This document shows positions 28,032-40,426 of a stretch of 64,000 nt of DNA, piece by piece (the stretch's first letter is position 1; every line of letters starts with the position of its first letter). The position numbers and the translations under genes are program-made. This stretch comes from Candidatus Dormiibacterota bacterium. Lineage in GTDB: Bacteria; Vulcanimicrobiota; Vulcanimicrobiia; Vulcanimicrobiales; Vulcanimicrobiaceae. The notes below the pieces were generated by a model that saw only the letters and a list, made by a program, of their open reading frames with translations, did not search any database and was not told the origin of the DNA. The stretch spans positions 62,001 to 126,000 of the forward strand of contig DATKRS010000019.1 of the NCBI GenBank assembly GCA_035532035.1, given 5' to 3'.

Positions 28032-28076
28032 TGGCTCCGGATGTTGGACTCGAACCAACGACCCGCTGATTAACAG
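28032..28076 (-). repeat. Left attachment site: displaced 3' half of tRNA-Asn
   Basis: 45 bp that match the 3' 45 nt (anticodon arm to CCA) of the intact tRNA-Asn at 40351-40395 in 43 positions. The two differences (28044, 28058) are the two partners of one T-stem base pair (U-A here, C-G in the intact gene), so both copies fold. The longest identical block is the 18 bp at 28059-28076, the likely crossover zone. Confidence 0.9.
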
Positions 28077-28185
28077 GGCGCGAAAGTAGTCCCAGCGAGT
28101 CACTGAGAGTCACGGCGAGCCTCGTCTCCTGAGGGAAATGGGGCTCGCCTGTCACGTTAAGCACCATCCTTTCACCGCGTTTCCC

Positions 28186-28210
28186 GACTTCTTGTGACCA
28201 AACGGTGACC
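28186..28210 (+). repeat. Arm-type direct repeat, left copy
   Basis: 25 bp that recur at 40246-40270 near the other end of the element in the same orientation, with 23 matches. The core holds GTGACC twice, 11 bp apart. In the excised circle the two copies would flank the core site, as arm-type integrase-binding sites do. Confidence 0.65.
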
Positions 28211-28301
28211 GGCGCTGATCGCACTGGCGAGTGTCATTTCGGCTTTCCGGCGCTGCGCATCCCGACCGATTCCCGTCGTTACCACCCGTTTCTGACGAGT
28301 C

Positions 28302-28378
28302 TGTTAGACGAATGTTAGACGGTAGCAGAGGCGGGTGAGTTCCCGGAACAGTGCAAGCCATCTAACAAAGCTCTAACG
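28302..28378. repeat. Four-copy TGTTAGA motif cluster with 11-bp phasing
   Basis: TGTTAGACG occurs at 28302 and 28313, and the reverse-complement type TCTAACA/TCTAACG occurs at 28361 and 28372. Both pairs have an 11-bp period, placing the sites on one face of the helix. A binding site for the integrase, excisionase or a regulator of the element is likely. Confidence 0.6.
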
Positions 28379-28388
28379 AATGTCTCGA

Positions 28389-28685
28389 CTACGGCTTCTC
28401 CACGTTCTCAGTCTCGGGTTCATCATCGGGCTTCATGCCCGGGAGCTTGTCCAGGAAGTCCGTCAGCGACTGGTGCGGCTGCGTGGAGTGTTCCCACGCG
28501 AACTGCTGGAACTGAATCGCAATCCAGGCGAGAAAGAAGATCATGACCAGAAAGACGGGCGGGACGGATGCGTCCACAGGTGCGCCTATATGAGGACCAA
28601 ACGCCCCGCGTCGGCCATGCCGGTGACGACCTGGATGAAGAAATAGATGGCGACTCTGCCCTGGCTGCCTAGTTCTCAGCGGCAT
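28389..28685 (-). CDS. Small membrane protein of the element (uncertain)
   Basis: Up to 98 aa. The C-terminal 55 residues look genuine: one transmembrane helix (FLVMIFFLAWIAIQFQQFAW) followed by an acidic tail (PGMKPDDEPETENVEK). The N-terminal third is Arg/His-rich and may not be translated; an internal GTG near 28575 is a likelier start. No family is recognised. It is transcribed away from the replication gene. Confidence 0.4.
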   Translation of the reverse strand: MPLRTRQPGQSRHLFLHPGRHRHGRRGAFGPHIGAPVDASVPPVFLVMIFFLAWIAIQFQQFAWEHSTQPHQSLTDFLDKLPGMKPDDEPETENVEKP

Positions 28686-28762
28686 CCGGACTGGTTCGCA
28701 TTTTCAGGCCTAGTGTACACCCAAAAAATCCTGTAAGAGGACTCCGCATTCGCAGTGTTTAG

Positions 28763-28791
28763 TTGACAACCGCTTGCTTGTATGCTATTAT
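28763..28791 (+). promoter_or_regulatory. Promoter of the element's replication genes
   Basis: TTGACA (28763-28768) and TATTAT (28786-28791) are separated by 17 bp, followed by ACTGGT and a GGGAG stretch. A second promoter of the element at 38589-38617 shares the 17-bp spacing and the TATACTGGT just after or over the -10. GTGTACACC at 28713 upstream recurs upstream of the other promoter too (38555). Confidence 0.75.
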
Positions 28792-28957
28792 ACTGGTGTA
28801 GAGGGAGAACCGTCCGTCGCCTCTGCATAAAAGATGATCCCCTCGCCCGGCAGCGCCTGAGCGACTTTTCATATTCGGCGCCGCCCTACGCGAGCGCGCA
28901 TAACCGGCGGCCATGATCGCCGAGGATACCTAAAACCACAACGAGGTTCGCATCAAT

Positions 28958-29155
28958 ATGCGAGACCATGCCGACCGCTTCATCGAGCGGCTCGATTCGC
29001 TCATCCTTTCCGGGCGCAGTAGCTTCGAGATAGGCCGCACCCTCGGAATCAGAGACACTTCAGTCCGGCAACGTCGCCGTAAGCTGCGCCAGGCCGGACT
29101 CCTACCCTTCTTCGAGAGGCCAACTCCGCATGTCCGTAACCAAGAACTTCGTTAA
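28958..29155 (+). CDS. Small helix-turn-helix protein
   Basis: A 65-aa basic protein with a single HTH (SSFEIGRTLGIRDTSVRQRR) preceded by a helix. It overlaps the replication-protein gene by 26 nt and is the first gene after the strong promoter at 28763. It may regulate replication. No closer family is recognised. Confidence 0.65.
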   Translation: MRDHADRFIERLDSLILSGRSSFEIGRTLGIRDTSVRQRRRKLRQAGLLPFFERPTPHVRNQELR

Positions 29156-30350
29156 AGCCCCAAACCACTTACTCACAGACTCGACGCTCGACGTGCGCTG
29201 CCGACTGCTCGCGTTGCGCCTGCTGCACTACGCGCGCGACAAGGCGACGTGCTGGCCGTCGCAGCAGAAGCTCGCCGATGACCTTGGATGGCCGCTCATC
29301 ACCACGAAGCGCCACTTCGAGCACCTGCGCTCTCAGGGACGCATCGGCGTTCGGCGCAAGGCACGCGACAAGCAGAAGCGCGAAGGCGTCCTGAACGTGT
29401 ACGACGTTTCGGCGCTCAAGGCCGGGACCAAAGTATCACAGGTGATCCCTAGGTCCGGGGATGACCAAGGTATCGCGAGTGATACGTTGGTCGAGTGGAC
29501 CAACGTATCAAATCGCATCGACCAAAGTATCAAAAGCGATCACGACCAAAGTATCTCCAGTGAGCCAGTAATCAGACTCAGGGAAATAGATACAAAAGAA
29601 AAAGACAGATTGCGCACGCTCGACTCAGCAGCGAATGCCAGTGCCGAGCCGGATCGTGACGATGAGTTCGGATCGTGTGCTGAGTCTGAAGCCCGCGAGC
29701 TAGAGCCAGCACCGAATGCCGCTGCTGGAGACGAGCCGGATGGTTTCGATTGTTCGGCTGAGACTGAGACCGTCGCGCACGGCTCCGATGCGACAATCGG
29801 CACCACGATGGGTGATCCTCTTCAGAACCAAACGCATTGCGAACCGGAACCTACGTTCCGGTTGGGAGACGAGCGCAGCGCTGCGATAGCGTCGCCGTTC
29901 TATCAGCAGCACGGCCTCGGGATCGCGCCGGAAGATGCCGGTCTCGACTGGGTCAAGACCACGCTGTACGATCCCGGCTTCGGAGCGACGTGGTACGAAG
30001 AGCCTAACGCCTCGCTGATAAATGACTGGCTCGAGCAGTTGCCCGAAGCCATCGTCGCGACCGAGATGCTCCTCACGCGACTCTGGAACGCGCAGCGCAC
30101 CGGCAAGGACTGCCCGATTAGGAAGCCCGTCCCGTATGTCGCCAAGATCGTAGCCAACGGCGACCGTCCCACGAAGAACGAGCACGCTATCGCCTTGACG
30201 ATGAAACGTGAACGCGAGGTCGTCGGATGGGTCGAGGAAATCGAGGATATGGGGGGCTTAAAAGGCTTCATGAGCCTTGACGACGTACCCGAGCACTTGC
30301 GCGACGACGTGAAGCGCGCCATAGAGCAAGAAACGGGCGCCGCAGCATGA
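29130..30350 (+). CDS. Replication-initiator-like protein with N-terminal winged helix
   Basis: 406 aa. The N-terminal 75 residues form an HTH_36-type winged helix (TCWPSQQKLADDLGWPLITT) as in phage and plasmid replication proteins. A low-complexity acidic middle (residues 100-250) is followed by a C-terminal domain with conserved-looking VGWVEEIEDMGGLKGFMS. The gene contains a five-copy iteron array at the DNA level (29426-29565) followed by an A-rich stretch, like the origin inside lambda gene O. ATGA couples it to the next gene. Replication role is inferred. Confidence 0.7.
   Translation: MSVTKNFVKAPNHLLTDSTLDVRCRLLALRLLHYARDKATCWPSQQKLADDLGWPLITTKRHFEHLRSQGRIGVRRKARDKQKREGVLNVYDVSALKAGTKVSQVIPRSGDDQGIASDTLVEWTNVSNRIDQSIKSDHDQSISSEPVIRLREIDTKEKDRLRTLDSAANASAEPDRDDEFGSCAESEARELEPAPNAAAGDEPDGFDCSAETETVAHGSDATIGTTMGDPLQNQTHCEPEPTFRLGDERSAAIASPFYQQHGLGIAPEDAGLDWVKTTLYDPGFGATWYEEPNASLINDWLEQLPEAIVATEMLLTRLWNAQRTGKDCPIRKPVPYVAKIVANGDRPTKNEHAIALTMKREREVVGWVEEIEDMGGLKGFMSLDDVPEHLRDDVKRAIEQETGAAA
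29426..29565. repeat. Iteron array inside the replication gene (candidate origin)
   Basis: GACCAANGTATC occurs at 29426, 29463, 29498, 29520 and 29544, and once in reverse at 29481-29492, which makes a perfect 12-bp palindrome arm pair with the third copy (5-bp loop). Copies 1 and 3 lie in a different codon phase from copies 2, 4 and 5, so the repetition is selected as DNA, not as protein. The last copies are spaced 22-24 bp. An A-rich stretch (29580-29605) follows. Confidence 0.8.
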
Positions 30351-30829
30351 GCACGCAACGCGCCGTGTCTATCCTCTCATTGCCGGATGAACGCCTGAGA
30401 TCGCTGCGCCTGCGTCGGCGTGAGTGCAACCACTGCGGCAAGGCCTACATCGCCAAGCGCGATGCGTCGAGGTTTTGTCTACCAAAATGTCGGAGGGCCG
30501 CTTACAGAAAGCAGCATCCGACGGACCCACGAGGCACGAAACGCCCGGCGAACAAGCGACAACGCGTGCGAGCAGCCGCGCTGGTCAAGTGGGGCCCACG
30601 CTGCGCCCTGTGCAGCCGTGAGCGCCCGCTCGAAAAGCTCCGCGCTCGCCTGGGGCGCGTCCTCGTTTGCACGAGCTGCAACGGACGCTGGGTAGCAGGT
30701 CGTCGACGTGGCGCAGACGGTAGGCGCTCCGGCGGGGAGATGCGCTACCTATCGGATGCCGTACTGAGCGGCCTCCTCATGCAGACGCAAACTTCAGAAC
30801 AAAGTTGTGCAGCCGTTGTCCCGAAGTAG
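30347..30829 (+). CDS. Zinc-finger protein of the element
   Basis: A 160-aa basic protein with two treble-clef-like Cys clusters: CNHCGKAYIAKRDASRFC...C (about residues 28-47) and CALCSRERPLEK followed by CTSCNGRW (about 87-112). The spacing recalls zinc ribbons and HNH-type fingers, but no HNH catalytic histidines are obvious. Its ATG overlaps the replication gene's stop (ATGA), so it is probably co-translated and nucleic-acid binding. Confidence 0.65.
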   Translation: MSTQRAVSILSLPDERLRSLRLRRRECNHCGKAYIAKRDASRFCLPKCRRAAYRKQHPTDPRGTKRPANKRQRVRAAALVKWGPRCALCSRERPLEKLRARLGRVLVCTSCNGRWVAGRRRGADGRRSGGEMRYLSDAVLSGLLMQTQTSEQSCAAVVPK

Positions 30830-30877
30830 CGTGCGCGAACAGCCTTGCACAGTGTAGGGGAAGAATAATGTGGCGCC

Positions 30878-31150
30878 CTAGCGCCACGACGGCAGCCGCG
30901 CGAGCAGCGACTCCCAGGCAAGACTCGCAAGGCGTTGCAGATCGTCGCGGGACAGCACCTCCGCTAACCAGCACGGGTCAACGTCGGCGCACCACGCCTC
31001 GGCGTGAAGCCCCAGGTGTTCGGGGTCTGTCAGCAGAGACTCGCGGTGGTCAGTGCTCAAATCGGCTAACCTGTGATCTAGCAGCATGGCGCGCCCCTGC
31101 GTGCTCATGTCCTCGAAAAGAAGCGTCGGCATTGCGGCTTCGTCAAACAT
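30878..31150 (-). CDS. Hypothetical protein of the element
   Basis: 90 aa, acidic and Leu/Asp-rich, with no signal peptide (e.g. HRLADLSTDHRESLLTDPEH, AEVLSRDDLQRLASLAW). ATG 31150 or 31132 are possible starts. It stands alone on the minus strand. Composition looks protein-like but no family is recognised. Confidence 0.45.
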   Translation of the reverse strand: MFDEAAMPTLLFEDMSTQGRAMLLDHRLADLSTDHRESLLTDPEHLGLHAEAWCADVDPCWLAEVLSRDDLQRLASLAWESLLARLPSWR

Positions 31151-31376
31151 GTAGGTAGCCTAGCATGCGCTAACCCAACAGCGCAAACCATCAGACGGCT
31201 ACGCCGCGGGAACGCACGACCAATGTACTCAGGCTCGCGCGTACTTTCGACTTTGCGCGTATGCACGACTCGTGCCTAACTTCTGCCAGTGATTCTGCAA
31301 CCGCGGCGGCTAGATTAAAGTTTCCAGCCGTTCGCCTCCAAACAAGAAAGACAGGCCCGATGAAACGGCTTGCTGT

Positions 31377-31702
31377 GTGCATGCCTTTGCGGTCGTGGAG
31401 CGACATGCACGCCGAAACGCGCTATGCCTCTGCGCTCGCGTATGTCACGCGCTGAGAGAACATACAAAAATGTCCAGTGAGCCGACCGCCAACACGGCTC
31501 GCTGGTCTTTAACGTCCGCCCAGCTTCCTGGGCGGATCGTCGCCCGCGCTCCTCGGACATGGAAACGCGGACGACGTGCCGCACTGTGAGAACTGCTGCG
31601 GCAACGCTTCGTGCGGATCGTTCAGCCCGCGCGTAGCGCCGAGTCTGCACCCGCTCCCTGTTCCTCACGGGTCGAGCGGGTGAGGCTCCCTCTCTCTTTT
31701 TT
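31377..31702 (+). ncRNA. Candidate structured RNA (hairpin chain ending in a T-run)
   Basis: This lies in a 632-bp stretch (31151-31782) without a convincing gene. Perfect or near-perfect stems follow one another: GTGCATG (31377/31404), GTATGT (31440/31460), an 11-bp stem with one G-U pair (31474-31484/31495-31505), an 8-bp stem TCCGCCCA (31515/31529), and a 9-bp stem CACCCGCTC (31648/31674) followed by TCTCTCTTTTTT at 31691-31702. The order suggests one transcript with a terminator. No known RNA family is recognised and no good promoter is seen. Confidence 0.4.
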
Positions 31703-31782
31703 GCCAGTGCGACAACACTCGCGAAACACGCGGGCCATATTGTGCGCCGCGACCATTACACTCTCTACCATCAAAGGATACG

Positions 31783-32070
31783 ATGAGCCAACTACTTACC
31801 GAGCCCAGTGACTGCATCACAGGTTTGCACCTTGCATTGCTTTGGCAAACGCAGGGCTTGAAAGAGAAAGAACTCGCGAAGCGCGCAAAGGTGAGCCAAT
31901 ACACTCTCAGCCGCGCCAAACACAATAACCAAACTCTAAAGCCGAACCAGGCTCGACGCATTGCGGTCGTGCTCGGCGTGCGCGCTGAGTTCTTGTCAAA
32001 ACTGATCCACAAGGACTGCTTGCGCGAGCCGTTTAGGCACCTCTACCAAGTCGCCGATGAGGCCGCATAA
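31783..32070 (+). CDS. Cro/C1-type helix-turn-helix protein
   Basis: 95 aa with an HTH_3-like domain over residues 20-65 (LKEKELAKRAKVSQYTLSRA, then LKPNQARRIAVVLGV). An AAAGGA Shine-Dalgarno sequence lies 4 nt before the ATG. It is the first gene of a four- to five-gene overlapping run and probably regulates the element. Confidence 0.75.
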   Translation: MSQLLTEPSDCITGLHLALLWQTQGLKEKELAKRAKVSQYTLSRAKHNNQTLKPNQARRIAVVLGVRAEFLSKLIHKDCLREPFRHLYQVADEAA

Positions 32071-32578
32071 CGTGAGCAGCATCAAGTTCAAATACAAGAA
32101 GAACCAAATGATTGACTTCGACGACGGAGTCTATCACGCGATCCCGGTGCTATCCGCGCGCATGGTGCCCGTTAACACGCCGTACGGGGATTCGCAAGTT
32201 CTGCTGCATGACTTCGACATGGGTCACGTGCACCTCATCGAGCTTCCCAACATGTCCCCGCAGATACCGAAGCGCCGCGACGAATGGAGCGACGGCTTCT
32301 TCGCGAAAGTTCAAGAAGCCGCATACGCCCAGGCGATTGAGAACCGCGCCAAAGTCTCGCAGATCGTGAAGCGCGTAAAACTCTATGCAGACGCCAATCA
32401 GCCTGGCGGTGCTGTCGTCGAAATCGTCGAAGATGCGGATGGCATCCTCGCAGAAGACCACGAACTCAGTGAAGCAGAGGCCGCACTCATTGGCGAAGGC
32501 CCCAAGTCCGAGCGCGTAAATCCACGAACTGCGAAACCTACCGAGATCATCGCAGCCATTACGGGTAAGCGCACGTGA
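32057..32578 (+). CDS. Hypothetical protein of the element
   Basis: Up to 173 aa; GTG at 32072, just after the upstream stop, is an alternative start that shortens it by five residues. The first half is beta-rich (YHAIPVLSARMVPVNTPYGD) and the second contains a basic helix and an acidic stretch (VEIVEDADGILAEDHELSEA). No family is recognised. It overlaps the next gene by 4 nt (GTGA). Confidence 0.65.
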   Translation: MRPHNVSSIKFKYKKNQMIDFDDGVYHAIPVLSARMVPVNTPYGDSQVLLHDFDMGHVHLIELPNMSPQIPKRRDEWSDGFFAKVQEAAYAQAIENRAKVSQIVKRVKLYADANQPGGAVVEIVEDADGILAEDHELSEAEAALIGEGPKSERVNPRTAKPTEIIAAITGKRT

Positions 32579-32982
32579 GCCTCGCAACTGAAACTGAACG
32601 CGGTAGCGCGACCGAATCGCAGTCGTTCATCGACAAACTACATCTAGGCTTCTTACGGCGCAAACGCGCAAAACGTGAGAGGGAGCTTGCCTCCGCACCC
32701 GCGTTCACGCCTACTGCGCACAAGAAAGCACAGTTAGGAAAACTCGACGCAGCTATCGCGAATGCGCTAGGGTGCAGTAGCGAAAACGAGCGCGAGGCAA
32801 AACGCCTAAGCGCGCTCTTCGCCGGTCTTGTAAAGCTCGAACAGCAGACTGGCATCGTCAAGTCTGCCGACTTCAGCGAGGCTTACGTCATCGCTGAGGG
32901 TGCACGCTTGGGCGGAGTATCGACTGCATGGGCCAATTCGCTACCCATCGGTACGAAGCAGCGAATGCGGCGCCTGGTCTAA
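32575..32982 (+). CDS. Hypothetical helical protein of the element
   Basis: 135 aa, mostly helical and strongly charged (LGFLRRKRAKRERELASAPA, SSENEREAKRLSALFAGLVK). The GTG start overlaps the previous stop by 4 nt and the next gene begins 2 nt after its stop, so it belongs to a coupled run. No motif is recognised. Confidence 0.6.
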   Translation: MSLATETERGSATESQSFIDKLHLGFLRRKRAKRERELASAPAFTPTAHKKAQLGKLDAAIANALGCSSENEREAKRLSALFAGLVKLEQQTGIVKSADFSEAYVIAEGARLGGVSTAWANSLPIGTKQRMRRLV

Positions 32983-32983
32983 C

Positions 32984-33196
32984 GTGGCGGAAAACCGAAC
33001 GTATCACTGCATGCGCTGCGGCCATGCGAAGAACGGCCACGACGATAGCGGGTGCACTCACGCTTCCTGCAAATGCAAAACCGAAATCGTGGAGGTTCGT
33101 TACTTCCGGCGTCGGGATCGGAGGCCGCCAAGCTTCGCACTGCCGGATGATGCGCGCGAGCAGGTGAAAGGGTTGCTAGTACGAGGTGTGCTTTGA
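32984..33196 (+). CDS. Small Cys/His-rich zinc protein
   Basis: 70 aa from GTG 32984. CMRCGHAKNGHDDSGCTHAS followed by CKCK gives six cysteines and three histidines in the first 30 residues, enough for one or two zinc sites. The rest is basic (YFRRRDRRPPSF). It overlaps the next gene by 11 nt. Confidence 0.6.
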   Translation: MAENRTYHCMRCGHAKNGHDDSGCTHASCKCKTEIVEVRYFRRRDRRPPSFALPDDAREQVKGLLVRGVL

Positions 33197-33437
33197 CAGT
33201 CGAAAAGCTGGATGGTACTGCTGGCGCACAAACGCCCCATATCCCGAAGCGTGGCTGAAGACGTGGCACACTTGCGACATGTGCTCGCGAGCTAATCGAA
33301 TCGCCGAACTTCGGCCCCTTGAGGTCGAGGTGCACCTCCTCAGAGAACACGGCGTAACGCTGGACGAGTACGCGACCAGCTACGAAGGTAATATTCCAGA
33401 ATGGCACTTGAGTTTCGCGCAATGGCGGAGGCCGTAG
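33186..33437 (+). CDS. MucR/Ros-like zinc-finger protein
   Basis: 83 aa with CDMC (about residue 30) followed by VHLLREHGVTLDEYATSYEG, the C2H2 pattern and HG-x-T-x-x-E-Y ending typical of Ros/MucR transcriptional regulators. The start is GTG 33186 inside the preceding gene. It is probably DNA binding. It is convergent with an exported-protein gene 6 bp away. Confidence 0.6.
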   Translation: MCFDSRKAGWYCWRTNAPYPEAWLKTWHTCDMCSRANRIAELRPLEVEVHLLREHGVTLDEYATSYEGNIPEWHLSFAQWRRP

Positions 33438-33443
33438 CGATTC

Positions 33444-34064
33444 CTAATTAGGTGCCGGGGTCAACTCGTCATCGGGCGCGATCATATCGGTCGGCAACGG
33501 TAGGGGCAGCGCGGTCGTCTTTTCTGCGCAGATGGTCTTTTCGAAGCGATCGGTGCGGGTTTCCAGAACTTTGCCAGCCTTAAAAACCGCATCGTTCGTA
33601 TGATGCCCGGTAAGCCCAAAGGTGAAAAATGAAACCACATGGTTATTGTAGGAGCCGCCAACGAACGTGCGGGTAAAGTGCAGATGGATCGTGTCCCCGC
33701 AGAAATTAATGAGGGTGTCCATGCCTAGGTCAACCTCTTGGGAAGTTGAGCTAGAAAAGACACGGCCTGTCGCGTTGCGCTCATTTGTAAACTGACCCTC
33801 TACCGGGTCGCCTGCCTTCGCAATAACATAACCGTTCCAGATCACGTCCTGGGCGACAGCAAACTCCACCGGCGTGTTTGCGACGCCGTTAAGACTCGAA
33901 TTGCCACCGACGCGAACGTCCTTCGTAACGAGTACGGGGACGACGACGCCGCGCGGGATGCTGATGGCCGTTGTGCGCGGTGTTTGCATCGGGCCAGGAG
34001 TCGTTTGCGCAAGGGCTAGCCCTGTACCGGCTAGAAACATAAGGAGAAGCAGATTCCTAAACAA
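33444..34064 (-). CDS. Exported protein of the element, unknown function
   Basis: 206 aa with a clear signal peptide (LLLLMFLAGTGLALAQ), then a beta-rich domain (SIPRGVVVPVLVTKDVRVGG, GYVIAKAGDPVEGQF) that resembles small SH3/OB-like periplasmic modules. The start is TTG 34064 with an internal ATG at 34040. No family is recognised. The element therefore carries envelope-directed cargo. Confidence 0.65.
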   Translation of the reverse strand: MFRNLLLLMFLAGTGLALAQTTPGPMQTPRTTAISIPRGVVVPVLVTKDVRVGGNSSLNGVANTPVEFAVAQDVIWNGYVIAKAGDPVEGQFTNERNATGRVFSSSTSQEVDLGMDTLINFCGDTIHLHFTRTFVGGSYNNHVVSFFTFGLTGHHTNDAVFKAGKVLETRTDRFEKTICAEKTTALPLPLPTDMIAPDDELTPAPN

Positions 34065-34139
34065 AGTCTCACCCTTCCTGGCTCAAGAGCAGCAAGCGTA
34101 ACTGCTCGCCGTATTGGCGGGTTAGCTCTGTACCCCTTC

Positions 34140-34586
34140 GTGGAGCAGCGCTGCCGCGACTGCGCCGCGCCATTCCACGATCCGAGTCCGCGACGTAACC
34201 GGCTGTACTGCGGATCGTGTAAGCGAAAGCGAAGGCTGGCGACGTATGAGAGGGTGAACGCGCGTCGCCCTCGCCGAGCACCATCGGGAGGTACGTTCTC
34301 GTCTCCGCCGGGATGGGCAGAGACTCCCGTCGTTTGTGAACCTTGCGAGGCCTCGGGTGTACACCGAAAGATTCAGGCCAAGGGGCTTTGGGGGCACATT
34401 GCGCGACTGCACCGATTGACGCTGCGCGAGCTGAGGAAGCGATTCCCGAAGACCGCGAGCCGGATCGCGTGGTATAGACCGAGCCGTGAAAGACGGATCG
34501 AGTTGCGCCAACGAATGCAACAGATTCGACACTGTTGGCTACGGAAGGTAGTCGACGAAGCGGCTCTGAAAGTCGACATACCGTGA
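34140..34586 (+). CDS. Zinc-finger (Ros/MucR-like) protein
   Basis: 148 aa, very basic. An N-terminal CRDCAAPFHDPSPRRNRLYC...C ribbon is followed by CEPCEASGVHRKIQAKGLWG and HIARLHRLTLRELRKRFP, a C2H2 finger of the Ros/MucR style. It is probably a DNA-binding regulator. Its stop overlaps the GTG of the next gene by 4 nt. Confidence 0.6.
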   Translation: MEQRCRDCAAPFHDPSPRRNRLYCGSCKRKRRLATYERVNARRPRRAPSGGTFSSPPGWAETPVVCEPCEASGVHRKIQAKGLWGHIARLHRLTLRELRKRFPKTASRIAWYRPSRERRIELRQRMQQIRHCWLRKVVDEAALKVDIP

Positions 34587-35194
34587 GACACCTCCTAGCT
34601 GTGGCGCTGGTCTTGCTAGCTTCTCTTTTCCCATGCCGAGCTTGGACCGACGAGACTGGAATGGCAGAGCCAACTGGACCGACTGACACCGTTCAGACGG
34701 AGAAGTGCTCTGTCGGGCTCTCCGACCTAGCAAACGATGCGGATGAATACAACTGGTGCGAAGTTTCGCATTTCCCCAAGGCCGCGTCGCAATTACCCAT
34801 CGGGATTAGTTACGTGGGATGGTATCACGACCGTACGGAAACGGACGACTGGGGCTGGTGCCTAGACTTCACGAATAACACCACTCGCGAAATGAGCGCT
34901 GTTCGGTTTCGTGTGGTGTTTGCAGACGCGTTCAACGAAGTGGTTTGGGACGCAACGAGCGCCCGAACTGGCGATTTTGCTCCTGGAATTCTAATCCAGG
35001 GAGGCCGCAGCGTTGACGACGTTTACAGCGGGAAGCAAGTCGCGCGAAACTGTTGGACCGGTTCATGGAATGTTCCAACCCTGGCGAGCATCGCCGTGAT
35101 AGTGCAAAATGCACGATACACAGACGGGACCGTTTGGAATAATACACGCGGGAAAGCCGCACTTTTGATAAACGTAACGAACACCTATTACTAG
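34583..35194 (+). CDS. Exported protein of the element, unknown function
   Basis: 203 aa from GTG 34583 with a signal sequence (VRHLLAVALVLLASLFPC) that may be a lipoprotein type. The mature part has several Trp and Cys residues and Ig-like beta strands (ISYVGWYHDRTETDDWGWCL, VRFRVVFADAF). No family is recognised. The 152 bp after it hold only a weak hairpin near 35250 followed by a T-rich stretch. Confidence 0.65.
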   Translation: MRHLLAVALVLLASLFPCRAWTDETGMAEPTGPTDTVQTEKCSVGLSDLANDADEYNWCEVSHFPKAASQLPIGISYVGWYHDRTETDDWGWCLDFTNNTTREMSAVRFRVVFADAFNEVVWDATSARTGDFAPGILIQGGRSVDDVYSGKQVARNCWTGSWNVPTLASIAVIVQNARYTDGTVWNNTRGKAALLINVTNTYY

Positions 35195-35346
35195 CGACCG
35201 AAGTCTGTGGTAAGACTCCAGGCGACTAACGCAGTGATGACAAAGCCCTAGCGCTATAGGACGGTTTTCTTTCTGGAGGCACAGGGGGACAAAAGTTCAA
35301 ACTGCGCCGAGGACGCATGATTCTGCCGGTGTTCTGACATACGGGA

Positions 35347-35616
35347 CTACTGCTGAGCGCGCAGCATTTCAAGCCACTCTGCGAACGCTTCTGCACTGTT
35401 GTAGCGCTTGCGGTAAGGCCTTTTCCCGGTAACGGGATCGACCGGCTTCGCCACGCTCCTACGGACGCGGATTCGCGGTTTCTTAGGCCCAGGCACGCAC
35501 CCCGGAAACCACCCTTTCACCTTACCGATTCGCCCATCGGGCGGCTTCACGAACGCGTACCGACGCGCCGCGTGGTAAAAGTTGCCAGCAAACCCTGGGC
35601 CGTGGTTTATCTTCAC
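35347..35616 (-). CDS. Hypothetical basic protein of the element
   Basis: 89 aa from GTG 35616, with GAGG 6 nt upstream. It is rich in Arg, Lys and Pro (KKPRIRVRRSVAKPVDPVTG) and ends in a helix (SAEAFAEWLEMLRAQ). No family is recognised; nucleic-acid binding is possible from its charge. Confidence 0.5.
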   Translation of the reverse strand: MKINHGPGFAGNFYHAARRYAFVKPPDGRIGKVKGWFPGCVPGPKKPRIRVRRSVAKPVDPVTGKRPYRKRYNSAEAFAEWLEMLRAQQ

Positions 35617-35691
35617 GCCAGCCTCACTTTCGGATTTAGCCCGTATGCAAGTTTTTGCATGGGTTCGATGACCTCTGAGTCGTCCAAACGG

Positions 35692-36414
35692 TTAGAGCCG
35701 CGCCTGCGCGAAAAGAAGTGGCAATGCGCGCTTTCTGGAAGCACGACCCAAGATGCGGTGCACCGTCATAGGCGTAAATGGCTTGTCCGTACGGGTGGTG
35801 TGACGCCGGTTTAGCTTGTGCGCGATCCACTCGAACGACTTACCCTGGTCACGATATGACTCGATGATGGGTAGCAGGTCCGCATAGGCTTCGGTAGCCT
35901 TGGCCCGCATTGCGCTGGCGCCTAGTTTACGCCCACGTGCTGCGGCTTTTCCGCGGAGGTTGTTGCGGCATGCGGGGATATGCGATCCCAGGGGCAAGCC
36001 GCGGGCCTTGCGCGCTGCTAAAGCCGCCGAAGTGCGCTCGCGAATGAGTTTAGCTTCGTACTCTGCCACTGCACCCATGACCTGGAGCATGAACACGTTT
36101 GCCTGTGGGAAGTCGCAGGATACGAACGAGACGCCGTTCTTCATGAAGGCCGATAGAAACGCAAGGTCACGGCTCAGCCGGTCGAGCTTTGCGGTAACGA
36201 GGGTTGCACCGGCTCGTCGCGCGTGAGCAACCGCTTTCGTAAGCTCGGGCCGCGAGCTAACACGGCCGGACTCCGTCTCGCGGTAGGAGTCTATAAGGCG
36301 CCCACCCTCGCGCCTTACGTACTCGCTGACGGCTGACTGTTGGGCGTCAAGCCCAAGCCCTGAGCGTTCTTGCTTCTTCGTTGAAACGCGGTAGTACGCG
36401 ATGAACTTGGTCAC
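35692..36414 (-). CDS. Serine recombinase (resolvase/invertase family)
   Basis: 240 aa with the catalytic N-terminal domain: YYRVSTKKQERSGLGLDAQQ, whose serine is the nucleophile, LDRLSRDLAFLSAF, and EYEAKLIRERTSAALAARK. A resolvase-type C-terminal HTH follows (about 185-230). The GTG at 36414 overlaps the preceding gene by 1 nt. Such enzymes resolve multimers or invert DNA. It is a second recombinase besides the tyrosine integrase, perhaps for dimer resolution of the replicating form. Confidence 0.92.
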   Translation of the reverse strand: MTKFIAYYRVSTKKQERSGLGLDAQQSAVSEYVRREGGRLIDSYRETESGRVSSRPELTKAVAHARRAGATLVTAKLDRLSRDLAFLSAFMKNGVSFVSCDFPQANVFMLQVMGAVAEYEAKLIRERTSAALAARKARGLPLGSHIPACRNNLRGKAAARGRKLGASAMRAKATEAYADLLPIIESYRDQGKSFEWIAHKLNRRHTTRTDKPFTPMTVHRILGRASRKRALPLLFAQARL

Positions 36415-36653
36415 TAGAAACCGCGCGCGACAAGCGCGGCGCGCAGCGAGCGAGACTTCGTGAGCGCCATATATCCGAGGCCGGAGTACTGAAATAGGCG
36501 GAGCACCACGACTGAGCTTCCTGCACCGGCCAGTAAGCGCTGAAGGAACAGATACGCCATCATGGCGCACGCGTCGCGCACTCTCATATCAGGTACGTTC
36601 GGCACTGTGGAGCGAGCGATTATGTGGCCGAGAACTGCGTTTAAGTTCATCAT
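36414..36653 (-). CDS. Hypothetical protein upstream of resolvase
   Basis: 79 aa, hydrophobic and helical (ACAMMAYLFLQRLLAGAGSS). It shares one nucleotide with the resolvase start, so they are co-expressed. Its start is ATG 36653 or 36650. No family is recognised. Confidence 0.45.
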   Translation of the reverse strand: MMNLNAVLGHIIARSTVPNVPDMRVRDACAMMAYLFLQRLLAGAGSSVVVLRLFQYSGLGYMALTKSRSLRAALVARGF

Positions 36654-36794
36654 GTATCAATCCTACATCGTCGAACCGCTGAAGTGATATGACCTAAGTC
36701 ACGTCGACGGGGTAGGGTTGCAGCATGCGCACGATAAACATCGTCGCCCGGCCACCACCACACCTACTGCGTCCTCCCATTCGAAAACCTAACC

Positions 36795-36857
36795 CGGGAC
36801 AAAAGTCGGGACACAACCCGGGACATTTTGCTATGTCGGGACATTCGGCGTGTCCCG
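36795..36857. promoter_or_regulatory. CGGGACA operator array
   Basis: CGGGACA occurs at 36795, 36807, 36819 and 36837 in the same orientation and once inverted (TGTCCCG, 36851-36857). The last direct copy and the inverted one form TCGGGACA-7nt-TGTCCCGA, an 8-bp palindrome. The first three are exactly 12 bp apart. It lies directly before the gene at 36880, so a regulator of the element probably binds here. The rest of the gap 36654-36794 shows nothing else. Confidence 0.65.
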
Positions 36858-36879
36858 ACTTCCTCGAAAAGGATCGAAC

Positions 36880-37290
36880 ATGAAAAGACTTCCGGCCAAG
36901 TGTGAACGCTGCTCCGAACCAGTACCATCCGCCCGAGCTAGGCGGTCGTCAACGTGTTCCGCCAAGTGCGCGGAGGCCGCGAAGAAAGCGAAGCAGCGCA
37001 CTAAGAGGGGGGATGGTTCTGCTGAGGTTCGCGCGAGCGACTCCGGCGAAGCCTCTCTGCTGAAAATTCCGGGTGACCTCATGGAAACACTTCAGGCCGC
37101 CAGTTGGATCGAGGAGCAAGAGCAATGCGCTTGGGCCGCCGCGGTCTCTGCATTCCTCGAATCTGATTCGAGCAGTGCGCTTGAAGAGCTTTGCTCGCGC
37201 GGGCTATTGCGCCTCCATAACGTCCAAGAGGGTGAGCGCGTCTACGTCCTGACGGCTGAAGGCCGCGCAGCACTGAAGGCCGTCGCGTGA
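36880..37290 (+). CDS. Zinc-ribbon/winged-helix-like regulatory protein
   Basis: 136 aa from ATG 36880 with AAAGGAT upstream. An N-terminal Cys4 cluster (CERCSEPVPSARARRSSTCS, then AKC) is followed by a linker and a C-terminal winged-helix-like part (EELCSRGLLRLHNVQEGERV then LTAEGRAALK). It sits behind the CGGGACA array, which it may bind. It overlaps the next gene by 4 nt. Confidence 0.6.
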   Translation: MKRLPAKCERCSEPVPSARARRSSTCSAKCAEAAKKAKQRTKRGDGSAEVRASDSGEASLLKIPGDLMETLQAASWIEEQEQCAWAAAVSAFLESDSSSALEELCSRGLLRLHNVQEGERVYVLTAEGRAALKAVA

Positions 37291-37589
37291 CTGAAGCCGA
37301 CACGCCGAACACGCTGGAGCGTGCACCTGCACTCGCGAGCCAAGCCTACGTGTACGAGAAGCTCTTGGGCGTCGAGTTTGGAACTGACGCCGCGTACCGG
37401 CAGTGCTTCTGGCTCTTGGTCGCGCCTTCGCGCTATTGGATGCGCGGCGCGCTCACGGAGGATCAGGTCGTGCAACTTGGCCGCGCCGCTCACGACCGCT
37501 TCGTCGAAACGGAGTCAACGTGTGCGAGCGATTATTGCGACATTGGTTCGGACGTTCAGCCCGCGCTGCGTGGCGACGTTAGGCAGTGA
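37287..37589 (+). CDS. Hypothetical protein of the element
   Basis: 100 aa, starting with GTG in a GTGA overlap. It has a helical, Trp/Tyr-containing centre (YRQCFWLLVAPSRYWMRGAL) and a helix EDQVVQLGRAAHDRFVETES. No motif or family is recognised. Confidence 0.5.
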   Translation: MTEADTPNTLERAPALASQAYVYEKLLGVEFGTDAAYRQCFWLLVAPSRYWMRGALTEDQVVQLGRAAHDRFVETESTCASDYCDIGSDVQPALRGDVRQ

Positions 37590-37647
37590 TGCTAGACCAC
37601 ACCAAAGGGCAGCGGCGTCGCAGTACCGAAGGACCTGCTTAGCGAAT

Positions 37648-38244
37648 GTGGAGCAATTGATTCAAGGGCTAATCGGGACCATAGTCGGCGGTCTTATCAG
37701 CGCTGCTGTCGCTTTCGTGACTTTGCGGGGATCGCTCGGGAACCAACTGCAACTCGAAGAACGAAAATTCGAATACCGTAAACAACTTGAGGCGCGGGAG
37801 CGAGAACATCGAGCGTCAGCGTTTCAGAGAAAACTGGTGCGAACCGTGCGGCGTCTACATAACACGTCGCGCATGGATGCCAAGGCACGAGTTTCTGTCC
37901 CCGCATGGAAACGAATTACCAAAGTTCTGGAAGGCTTGCTCGAAAGCGACGAATGTGCTCAGTCCCTGGATGATACGACTTATGAGGCCGTATGGAAAGC
38001 GTGCGACGAGTCGCAAGCAGCGACGATGTTTCTTGAGACATGGACGGGGGATGCAAGGAATCCGGCCGCTGTGGTGCTCTTATCCCTTGCTGAGTACTCC
38101 AAAGCGCTGGAAGCCTGCTTTGTAACACTTGGAGATAAAGACCGAGCACGCAACGTGCATGATGCTTGCGCGAAAAACTTCAAGGGAGTCGGGTTCTGTA
38201 TGACTGACGACTACGACCGCAAAGCGGCTTACCCAAACCCATGA
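37648..38244 (+). CDS. Membrane-anchored coiled-coil protein
   Basis: 198 aa from GTG 37648. There is an N-terminal transmembrane helix (residues 5-27, IGTIVGGLISAAVAFVTL), then a charged coiled coil (LEERKFEYRKQLEAREREHR) and a helical C-terminal domain. The layout is that of small anchored proteins with a cytoplasmic domain. No family is recognised. It overlaps the next gene by 4 nt (ATGA). Confidence 0.55.
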   Translation: MEQLIQGLIGTIVGGLISAAVAFVTLRGSLGNQLQLEERKFEYRKQLEAREREHRASAFQRKLVRTVRRLHNTSRMDAKARVSVPAWKRITKVLEGLLESDECAQSLDDTTYEAVWKACDESQAATMFLETWTGDARNPAAVVLLSLAEYSKALEACFVTLGDKDRARNVHDACAKNFKGVGFCMTDDYDRKAAYPNP

Positions 38245-38474
38245 GCAGCGACCCATTCGAACCCGGCAACGTCTCCAGCCTCGGCACGTTCCGCGGCGCG
38301 TACTATGACGACGACGCGACGGAGATAGGGAGTGATGACCTGAGCGCGCGGCCTCGAATACAACCCTGCCAACAGCCACAGAATGCCTCGGCGACATGGA
38401 TCGCGGTGGTCGTGATCATCGTCGCGATTCCGGTCTTACTCCTAGCCGGGTGGCTACTGTCGCTCTTTCAGTAA
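38241..38474 (+). CDS. Small tail-anchored membrane protein
   Basis: 77 aa: an acidic, probably disordered N-terminus (YYDDDATEIGSDDLSARPRI) and a C-terminal transmembrane helix (TWIAVVVIIVAIPVLLLAGW). It is coupled to the coiled-coil membrane protein before it; the two may act together at the membrane. No family is recognised. Confidence 0.55.
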   Translation: MSSDPFEPGNVSSLGTFRGAYYDDDATEIGSDDLSARPRIQPCQQPQNASATWIAVVVIIVAIPVLLLAGWLLSLFQ

Positions 38475-38588
38475 CCCGGCTGATGCCCAACCACCGAATT
38501 ACACTCGAAAAAGTCCCGGCTGCGTCATTACCATTCAGTAGACCAGTTTTTCGGGTGTACACCGAAGGAAAAAATCCAACAGAGGTGC

Positions 38589-38617
38589 TCGACAAAAGGC
38601 CTGTTTCGCGGTACTAT
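38589..38617 (+). promoter_or_regulatory. Promoter of excisionase-integrase genes
   Basis: TCGACA (38589-38594), a 17-bp spacer and TACTAT (38612-38617), followed by ACTGGT and AAGGGGAG. The layout mirrors the promoter before the replication genes at 28763. The likely transcript has a leader of about 250 nt before the excisionase gene. Confidence 0.65.
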
Positions 38618-38762
38618 ACTGGTAAGGGGAGCAGTCACACAATCGCGAGGCGCAGTGCGTCGGCGCGATTCGCAATTCTGGGGCAAAAGGTATTCTGTGG
38701 AGAATACAAAGCGAAAAAGCGCGTAAACACTGAGCGCCGCCTATAGCGCGAGCGCACCGGCC

Positions 38763-38789
38763 TTCGAGGTATACGTCTAAAACCTCGAA
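38763..38789. repeat. 8-bp inverted repeat in the excisionase leader
   Basis: TTCGAGGT and ACCTCGAA are separated by 11 nt. They could form an RNA hairpin in the leader or serve as an excisionase or regulator site. Confidence 0.45.
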
Positions 38790-38877
38790 CCGTAGGGCCG
38801 TAGGGCGCGACCAAGGTAAACCAAACTTGCATACACGATCCAAGCGGGACGAAAGCTCGTCGCCGCTTTCTGCAAAC

Positions 38878-39072
38878 ATGCCCGAGCACAAGCGTCTTAC
38901 CATGACCGTGGCTGAGGCCGCTGGAATGCTTGGCATCGGAATAAATACCGCCTATGAGGCCGTGAGGCGCGGAGAACTTCCCGCCGTGCGTTTCGGAAGG
39001 CGCGTAGTGGTCCCGATAGCCGGGCTTGAAAGTGTCCTCCGTATGGACGCCGAACCGACCGGCACCGCCTGA
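38878..39072 (+). CDS. xis: Excisionase-family DNA-binding protein
   Basis: 64 aa from ATG 38878. The sequence TMTVAEAAGMLGIGINTAYE AVRRGELPAVRFGRRVVVPI (winged HTH_17, MerR-like) is the common 'excisionase family' domain. It precedes the integrase gene by 31 bp, as directionality factors often do. It would bend the attachment DNA to favour excision and may also regulate the integrase. Confidence 0.85.
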   Translation: MPEHKRLTMTVAEAAGMLGIGINTAYEAVRRGELPAVRFGRRVVVPIAGLESVLRMDAEPTGTA

Positions 39073-39103
39073 CCCTTACGCGGGCGGAGAAAGGAGAACA
39101 ACC

Positions 39104-40420
39104 TTGCAAGTCAAGGCCAAAGCACGCGGCGACAAGTGGAGCGTGCTCATTGACCTGCCACGCAAGAACGGAAGGCGGAAGCAGAAACGCTTTACCTCGC
39201 GCACTAAGGGCGAAACCGAGCGACTCGCGCTGAAGTACCTGGCCGAAGCTAAGGCAAAGAAAGCACAACCGCAGACGCGAACAGTCGGCGATCTACTCGA
39301 TGCGTGGTTGGCCGACGTGCGCCCTTCGATTGAATCGCGGACTTACGCTTCATACGAAAGCGTGGTCCGGCTGTATCTACGACCAGAGCTAGGTCCCGAT
39401 AGACTCTGCGAGCTATCGGCAGAGGCAATCTCTTCCGCGCGAGACGCTTGGATGAGCGCCAGCCGCAAGGATAAGCGAAAGGGGACAATCTCAGGAACCA
39501 CGGCCCGATATGTCCTCCGCACCCTTAAAACGGCGCTCACGTTTGGGATAGAGCGTAAATGGCTGGACGAGAATCCCGCCAGGTACGTCAAACCCCCAAA
39601 AGCGTCCGAGTCAGAGAAGCGGCCATTAGAGGCAGAGGAAGTACGCTCGCTGCTTTCCGCTGCAAGAAACACGGCTCTGTTCTGCCCTGTCCTAATCGCC
39701 TTATACTCCGGCGTTCGGCGAGGCGAACTGCTCGCAGTTAAGTGGGAGGACTTCGACCTCGTGGATGGCTCCCTCACTGTGCGACGCTCGCTAGAAGTTG
39801 ACAGACTGGACGGCTACGCCATCAAAGAGAAGGCGCCAAAAAGCGCGTCGAGCAAACGCGCCATACCGATTCCGGCCTCGGTCGTTGAGGAGCTTCGAGA
39901 GTACAAAGTCGCTCAAGCACAGCGACTGCAGGTTCTGGGCTTGGATCAGGAGTCAGAGACCCTGGTCTTTGATCGTGGGGACGGCCAGCCGTGGCACCCG
40001 GATACATTCGGCCAAGCGTGGATCGAGTTCGCAAAGACGTGCGGCGTGCGTCGGGTTCGATTCCATGACCTAAGGGCTACGTTCGCAAGCCTGCTCATCG
40101 AAGCGGGAGTCGATCCGGTAACAGTGCAGCACTTCCTTGGACACTCGACCCTGAACATGACGATGCGCGTCTATGCCAAGGCCACGACGCGAGCGAAGCG
40201 TGCTGCTGCAGACCGGCTCGAAGCCTCGCTCATGCAGCCGTCCGAGACTTCCTGTGACCAAATGGTGACCAGAACGTCGGACACGCTCGCTTGCGCAATC
40301 CCTACAAAAGCGAAAACCCTCGACAAATCAAGGGTTTCCACTCCTGTAAGTGGCTCCGGATGCTGGACTCGAACCAGCGACCCGCTGATTAACAGTCAGC
40401 TGCTCTACCAACTGAGCTAA
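39104..40420 (+). CDS. int: Tyrosine recombinase / integrase of the element
   Basis: 438 aa from TTG 39104 (AAGGAG with 7-nt spacing). It has an N-terminal arm-binding domain, a SAM-like core-binding domain (about 65-155), and a catalytic domain with R in YSGVRRGELLAVKW, H-x-x-R in HDLRATFASLL, then GHSTLNMTMRVY with the tyrosine. The last 20 or so codons run through attR and the tRNA-Asn gene in antisense. The stop codon lies in chromosomal tRNA sequence, so excision would change the C-terminus. Confidence 0.95.
   Translation: MQVKAKARGDKWSVLIDLPRKNGRRKQKRFTSRTKGETERLALKYLAEAKAKKAQPQTRTVGDLLDAWLADVRPSIESRTYASYESVVRLYLRPELGPDRLCELSAEAISSARDAWMSASRKDKRKGTISGTTARYVLRTLKTALTFGIERKWLDENPARYVKPPKASESEKRPLEAEEVRSLLSAARNTALFCPVLIALYSGVRRGELLAVKWEDFDLVDGSLTVRRSLEVDRLDGYAIKEKAPKSASSKRAIPIPASVVEELREYKVAQAQRLQVLGLDQESETLVFDRGDGQPWHPDTFGQAWIEFAKTCGVRRVRFHDLRATFASLLIEAGVDPVTVQHFLGHSTLNMTMRVYAKATTRAKRAAADRLEASLMQPSETSCDQMVTRTSDTLACAIPTKAKTLDKSRVSTPVSGSGCWTRTSDPLINSQLLYQLS
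40246..40270 (+). repeat. Arm-type direct repeat, right copy
   Basis: Second copy of the 25-bp repeat at 28186 (23 matches), here inside the 3' part of the integrase gene, about 80 bp from the core site. Confidence 0.65.
40314..40337 (-). terminator. Element-supplied terminator for tRNA-Asn
   Basis: AAACCCT (40314-40320) and AGGGTTT (40331-40337) form a 7-bp stem, 13 nt beyond the tRNA 3' end on the minus strand, followed by TCGCTTTTG. It replaces the original hairpin at 27999 that insertion removed from the tRNA. It overlaps the integrase gene in antisense. Confidence 0.5.
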
Positions 40421-40426
40421 TCCGGA
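40351..40426 (-). tRNA. tRNA-Asn (GTT)
   Basis: 76 nt with encoded CCA. It has a 7-bp acceptor stem (TCCGGAT/ATCCGGA), D-arm GCTC...GAGC, anticodon arm GCTGA-CTGTTAA-TCAGC with anticodon GTT, and T-arm GCTGG-TTCGAGT-CCAGC. The 5' part is chromosomal. The 3' 45 nt coincide with the element's attachment repeat, so the gene was rebuilt by the integration. Confidence 0.97.

Follow-up and report, generated by a model that had tools for sequence, protein, structure and literature searches.

Short repeats bound by a single protein are known from replication origins, partition sites and operators. In origins of the lambda O type the iterons lie inside the initiator gene. TubR binds 12-bp iterons, partition sites of the TubRC and AspA type consist of short direct repeats, and the operators of MarR-type repressors are dyads. 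In phage SPP1 the organizer G38P (gp38) binds direct repeats at two origins, oriL within gene 38 and oriR in an intergenic position about 13 kb away, according to the published account (PMC6316719). We analysed an array of the word CGGGACA in a stretch of DNA of 64 kb, here called the window, in which it sits within an element of about 12.3 kb integrated at tRNA-Asn (28033-40426). The array resembles the SPP1 origins in that a short word recurs in direct orientation, spaced 11-12 bp, and, like oriR as described in that account (PMC6316719), it lies outside the initiator gene; it differs in its word, the SPP1 repeats not being CGGGACA, and in that the element's initiator gene carries other iterons.

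The array is real and stands far above chance. The first-pass annotation had reported four direct copies and one inverted copy, and an exact-word search confirmed all five:

36795..36801, plus strand: CGGGACA copy 1, within CCCGGGACAAAAGT
36807..36813, plus strand: CGGGACA copy 2, 12 bp past copy 1
36819..36825, plus strand: CGGGACA copy 3, 12 bp past copy 2
36837..36843, plus strand: CGGGACA copy 4, 18 bp past copy 3, left arm of a hairpin
36851..36857, minus strand: inverted copy (TGTCCCG), 7 nt past copy 4
36835..36859: perfect 9-bp inverted repeat GTCGGGACA-N7-TGTCCCGAC, made by the last two copies

Start-to-start spacings are 12, 12, 18 and 14 bp; the 12-bp period that had been proposed holds for the first three copies and is lost thereafter (18 bp, then 14 bp to the inverted copy). 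The copies are flanked by C or T on the 5' side and by A, C or T on the 3' side, and copy 2 with its flanks forms a 12-nt perfect complement to the inverted copy. With spacings of 12, 12 and 18 bp the direct copies form a cluster of short repeats at about one helical turn, as in phage iteron origins. CGGGACA is not a rare word in the 64-kb window, where it occurs 11 times against 9.8 expected from shuffles; its rarity lies in its clustering. The highest count of any 7-mer per 63 bp is 5 in the window, compared with 3 in 39 and 4 in one of 40 order-2 Markov windows, and 200 shuffles of the element alone gave maxima of 2 or 3. No other direct pair of CGGGACA 3-12 bp apart was found in 2.25 Mb of the same genome, and the two further exact copies in the element (30817, minus strand, and 30948, plus strand) are isolated.

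The array lies in a 226-bp gap between a minus-strand ORF of 79 aa and a plus-strand gene that begins at 36880, and it spans 85 to 22 nt upstream of the ATG of the latter. The sequence AAAAGGA, which is ribosome-binding-site-like, stands six bases before this ATG. The surrounding features of the element are:

28033..28076: left att, a 44-nt copy of the 3' part of tRNA-Asn with 2 mismatches
31783: Xre-type regulator
35692..36414, minus strand: serine recombinase with a Resolvase domain, 240 aa, divergent from the array
36414..36653, minus strand: 79-aa ORF without assignment, between array and recombinase
36880..37290, plus strand: 136-aa protein with a Cys motif and, in a low-confidence model, a winged-helix-like C-terminal half; first of the plus-strand gene run
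within 37287..40420, plus strand: further genes at 37287 (100 aa), 37648 (198 aa) and 38241 (77 aa)
start 38827, plus strand: HTH_17/excisionase-like gene
39026..40420, plus strand: tyrosine integrase
40351..40426, minus strand: tRNA-Asn, the right att, into which the integrase ORF extends

The plus-strand genes follow in the order 36880, 37287, 37648, 38241, 38827 and 39026, with a gap of 352 nt ahead of 38827. Among the element products scanned there was nothing convincing for capsid or terminase, only weak matches; the Xre-type protein (31783) matches a terminase-small-subunit profile weakly (E 0.005). A PADLOC search returned no match.

The array had been said to precede a zinc-ribbon/winged-helix gene. 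The position of the gene is as claimed, but the fold is weakly supported, both by the PHROG matches and by the model. The product carries the Cys pattern CERC...CSAKC in its sequence, matches two PHROG families weakly (an unknown family at 0.001 and a DksA-like zinc finger at 0.008), and has no Pfam or NCBIfam match above the cut-off. Its AlphaFold model is of low confidence (mean pLDDT 60.5). Residues 42-136 of the model, its C-terminal half, resemble winged-helix proteins; the best structural match is a MepR Q18P mutant (Z 5.3, rmsd 3.5 over 79 residues), and TubR, the pNOB8 centromere binders (AspA) and MarR proteins match at Z values of about 4.2-4.9, values of 4 to 5 being common between unrelated models. 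Foldseek gave no match to the model at E <= 0.001. Relatives of the protein were found in its own genome only (1 of 98 genomes), with none in the viral contigs and plasmids.

Our preferred explanation, which we hold tentatively, is that the array is an operator over the leader of a plus-strand operon starting at 36880, with the 36880 product as the first candidate for the binder. We infer that one sequence-specific DNA-binding protein would dock on all sites of the array, over the promoter and leader of 36880. Its monomers would occupy the CGGGACA half-sites one after another along nearly one face of the DNA, together with the closing inverted pair, and the bound protein would occlude the promoter and so repress a co-transcribed operon that would start at 36880 and run on into the excisionase-like and integrase genes. 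With the 36880 product as binder, this would be autoregulation. We count in favour of the operator the excess of the array over chance and the lack of a second one in the genome, the place of the sites in the 36880 leader (36795-36857, ahead of ATG 36880 with its AAAAGGA), the winged-helix-like C-terminal half of the model, which matches repressors of the MarR type as well as wHTH centromere binders, and the DNA-level behaviour of CGGGACA elsewhere, in 32 of 55 viral arrays and in a leader array on contig L198 (both described below). Counted against it are the low confidence of the fold, the lack of a gene relative in the sets searched, and the fact that 23 of 32 comparable viral arrays lie at replication genes rather than regulators. 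Also counted against it is that a promoter search around the array, made with criteria for the sigma-70 type, gave no match. As in MarR-type repressors with operators in their own leaders, a small winged-helix-like protein, its fold weakly supported, is encoded right behind the sites; the MarR sites are dyads, whereas the window array has four direct copies and one inverted copy, which to our knowledge is not a usual repressor operator.

The leader position also bears on a regulatory RNA, in which the inverted copy would pair alternatively with the direct copies in the 36880 mRNA and modulate translation or termination. The 106-nt leader folds well for its composition (z = -3.48, with 0 of 200 shuffles as good), the inverted copy pairing with copy 2 and not with copy 4, and a perfect 9-bp hairpin sits 20 nt ahead of the start codon. 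Inverted binding sites, however, fold by construction, and the leader has no match in Rfam, no terminator-like site reported and no relatives from which covariation could be read. We regard an RNA leader as improbable.

A partition site had been proposed as well, and the structural matches of the 36880 model bear on it directly. A centromere-like site bound by a winged-helix-like protein would fit the weak matches to TubR and pNOB8 AspA, or centromere-binding proteins, at Z 4.5 to 4.7; if the model is right, TubRC and AspA partition sites would also share with the window array a small winged-helix binder and short direct repeats. The proposal has this faint structural echo in its favour. Against it, the same matches are tied with MarR proteins, and no motor NTPase was recognised by Pfam in the neighbouring products scanned, including 37287, 37648 and 38241. 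An element that is integrated, moreover, has no need of partitioning, and we think such a site unlikely.

We also examined how CGGGACA behaves in other DNA. Viral contigs hold 78 stretches in which CGGGACA occurs three times at 12-bp steps, compared with 13 for the reversed word and 26 for a permuted word of the same composition. After removal of identical arrays, extra copies within 150 bp, either out of frame or on the opposite strand, accompany 32 of 55 CGGGACA arrays (57 when the other duplicate copy is removed) but 0 of 12 and 5 of 22 arrays of the control words, indicating that the majority of CGGGACA arrays are a feature at the level of DNA and not coding repeats. These out-of-frame and two-strand arrays support the earlier suggestion of multi-site protein binding along the DNA. 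Across the 32 loci, 72 of the 107 neighbour pairs no more than 40 bp apart are spaced 7-13 bp, the triples used for selection being left out. A search of whole records found CGGGACA pairs in 15 of 15 viral records and pairs of the reversed word in 0 of 15, the records having been chosen by the motif.

Replication genes are the usual neighbours of these viral arrays. By our own count, for which there is no matched control figure, a replication gene overlies the array or lies within 2.5 kb of it at 23 of the 32 loci: 14 in an AAA_25 BLAST cluster, 7 in an organizer cluster, L019 (Prim-Pol/AAA_25) and L062 (primase). Profile scans cover L016, L030, L042 and L045 (AAA_25) and the organizers L055, L060 and L089, the last of which falls outside the 32; the rest were assigned by BLAST clustering. 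The remaining nine arrays are L024, L026, L033, L050, L051, L059, L065, L074 and L078, with a terminase gene within 1 kb of the array at L059 and L065, and the array of L033 within a portal gene. The replication genes at CGGGACA arrays encode an AAA_25 helicase/primase or an SPP1-G38P-like (DnaD-like) organizer. Arrays of the AAA_25 phages resemble the window array in their word, in their irregular spacing of mostly 7-13 bp and in having direct and inverted copies, but they adjoin the helicase gene and the window array does not.

The word is nonetheless not a universal phage iteron, a candidate that we rejected on finding GGGACA repeats in only 5 of 80 AAA_25 relatives and 1 of 9 organizer genes. 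The five (L111, L112, L115, L118 and L175, with L115 and L023 being one contig) have at least five GGGACA within 300 bp, and are drawn from the best 80 of 441 relatives retrieved with an alignment of sequences to which the motif itself had led, a bias in the motif's favour. Other hexamer clusters (AGGGGC, GTACCA, CGGACA and others) often follow the AAA_25 genes in L108-L187, an observation that carries no shuffle control; it looks as if a single type of origin came with many iteron specificities.

Organizer genes from nine phage records were compared, a tenth stretch, L372, being left out for having the gene layout of L373; the phage records similar to the L060 organizer include SPP1 gene 38. 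The organizer gene of Sulfitobacter phage pCB2047-A, which was found by protein similarity alone, holds eight GGGACA at mostly 11-12-bp steps and is the only one of the nine with GGGACA repeats. In SPP1 gene 38 the word GACA occurs four times at 11-bp steps, in three Staphylococcus phages the repeats are ACATCA or AAGACA at mostly 11-bp steps, and the organizer gene of Mammaliicoccus phage phi31 has GGAACA at 12-bp steps. A spacing of 12 bp had been called unusual for dimeric regulators; it is nothing exceptional in arrays of this class, as SPP1 and several of its relatives show 11-12 bp inside the organizer gene. This comparison, taken with the SPP1 account, suggests that CGGGACA is one specificity among those of an already known class of initiator arrays. 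Among the matches listed from open-licence full texts, no description of CGGGACA or GGGACA as a phage or origin repeat was found.

The element has an initiator gene and an iteron array of its own:

29130..30350, plus strand: O-like / DnaD-like replication initiator (phrog_270 at 5e-10, phrog_391 at 7e-10)
29426..29555: iterons GACCAAAGTATC with 0-1 mismatch, direct at 29426, 29463, 29498, 29520 and 29544, inverted at 29481

The GACCAAAGTATC iterons sit in differing reading frames inside the initiator gene, flanked by one of the element's stretches of highest A+T content. Their layout is that of the lambda O or SPP1 type of origin, and they lie about 300-430 nt into the gene, similar to the place of the repeats in SPP1 gene 38 and its relatives. 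This array probably serves the element as its replication origin. The GACCAAAGTATC iterons and the CGGGACA array share words of 7 nt at most. By eye, CCGGGACAAAAGT (array copy 1, at 36794) and CCGGGACCAAAGT (the first initiator iteron with its flank, at 29421) are equal at 12 of 13 positions, an agreement that is possibly due to chance. Relatives of the initiator were found in its own genome only (1 of 149 genomes), with none in phages and viral contigs, and its AlphaFold model (pLDDT 36) is useless.

These results bear on the possibility that the CGGGACA array is itself bound by an initiator of that specificity, as a second origin of the element, as the relic origin of an ancestral replicon, or as a site for the initiator of another phage. 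The viral base rate of 23 in 32 favours a site of the replication type, for the identical word recurs at mostly 7-13-bp spacing in or beside the AAA_25 helicase/primase and G38P/DnaD-like organizer genes, and the Sulfitobacter organizer gene with its eight GGGACA was found without the motif. The initiator at 29130 matches some of the same PHROG families as the CGGGACA-bearing organizers, namely phrog_270, phrog_391 and phrog_186 in common with L055, and phrog_186 and phrog_428 in common with L060, so that 29130 might bind CGGGACA. In addition, no 60-nt stretch of the element is richer in A+T than 36640-36699 (60-62 percent), which stops about 95 bp short of the array, the A+T content over the array itself being 43-48 percent. 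The second replication site put forward in the first-pass annotation thus finds support by analogy, in the viral arrays and in the two SPP1 origins, about 13 kb apart and served by one organizer according to that account (PMC6316719). It is weakened by the different sequence of the iterons in the element's initiator gene, and by the place of the array 7 kb from that gene (29130-30350 vs 36795), in the leader of another. No AAA_25 protein was found among the Pfam-scanned element products, the alignment of the organizers against 29130 by hhalign gave a probability near 1 percent and hence no support, and hhalign linked neither 36880 nor 29130 to any of the array-bearing initiators. The low rate of GGGACA clusters in AAA_25 relatives (5 of 80) also means that the shared word may be a coincidence of specificity. 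On balance we consider an initiator-binding array possible but doubtful. A particular form of it, in which the element would use an orphan array of foreign phage specificity, beside its own origin, to draw in the initiator of a helper phage or of a competitor, either to be replicated by that initiator or to titrate it, seems to us unlikely.

We prefer the operator over the 36880 leader to an initiator site because of the position of the array and because a separate origin-like array exists in the initiator gene; with the GACCAAAGTATC iterons there, the CGGGACA array is not needed as the origin of the element. One 7-bp word forms two-strand, frame-independent arrays at phage replication genes with different types of initiator (AAA_25 and SPP1-like). 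The window element, for its part, has two arrays of different specificity: the first lies in its initiator gene, the second ahead of a gene run that ends with the excisionase-like and integrase genes. The second array may be a switch or a site for another's initiator.

Cellular genomes gave one parallel. Ten of 98 other genomes of the family each have one direct CGGGACA pair, compared with 8 matches in 7 genomes for the reversed word, indicating that these pairs are background; two of the ten, G038 and G051, were examined further. At least 120 loci were found in bacterial genomes at large, and of the 80 that were classified (L268-L307 were left out) 68 are near-identical tandem units and 12 are irregular. 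Contig L198, from the Acidimicrobiales, carries the word six times in direct orientation and once inverted, with CGGGACA-N7-TGTCCCG among these copies, and its array ends about 73 nt upstream of the ATG of a small hydrophobic ORF. It is, by analogy, a bacterial parallel for the leader position of the window array. We read the neighbouring ORFs of L198 as a putative conjugation operon.

The divergent serine recombinase offers another candidate for the binder, which would use the array as a res-like binding or recombination site. TGTC is a hallmark of resolvase half-sites, and each direct copy has its TGTC end facing the recombinase, whose gene starts 380-440 bp from the array. No pair of half-sites in resolvase orientation could be seen by eye in the array, however, and at least three CGGGACA within 600 bp upstream were found at 0 of 27 recombinase relatives (27 of 29 loci, L348 and L358 being left out; L340 offers only 393 nt). 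We judge this the least likely of the explanations considered. A serine-recombinase site had also been suggested by CGGGACA pairs beside recombinases in two other genomes, but both pairs proved to code for the N-terminus MSRKxVPK, which together with the 0 of 27 relatives disfavours it. In the recombinase relatives L335, L337, L338, L341 and L343, a TTGAACG- or TTGACCG-like element was seen by eye before the start codons; judged from its sequence, it is perhaps an SOS-type operator.

Two further kinds of CGGGACA cluster were seen in viral contigs. The 95-kb contigs L381 and L383 hold 46 and 43 copies of CGGGACA/TGTCCCG, mostly in two dense clusters that overlap ORFs and are unlike the small arrays described here. 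On one 38-kb contig (L050 and L078), palindromic CGGGACATGTCCCGGGACA arrays occur at two places, both with the end TGTCCCGGTCATG, and a third pair lies elsewhere; these may be a set of repressor operators rather than an origin.
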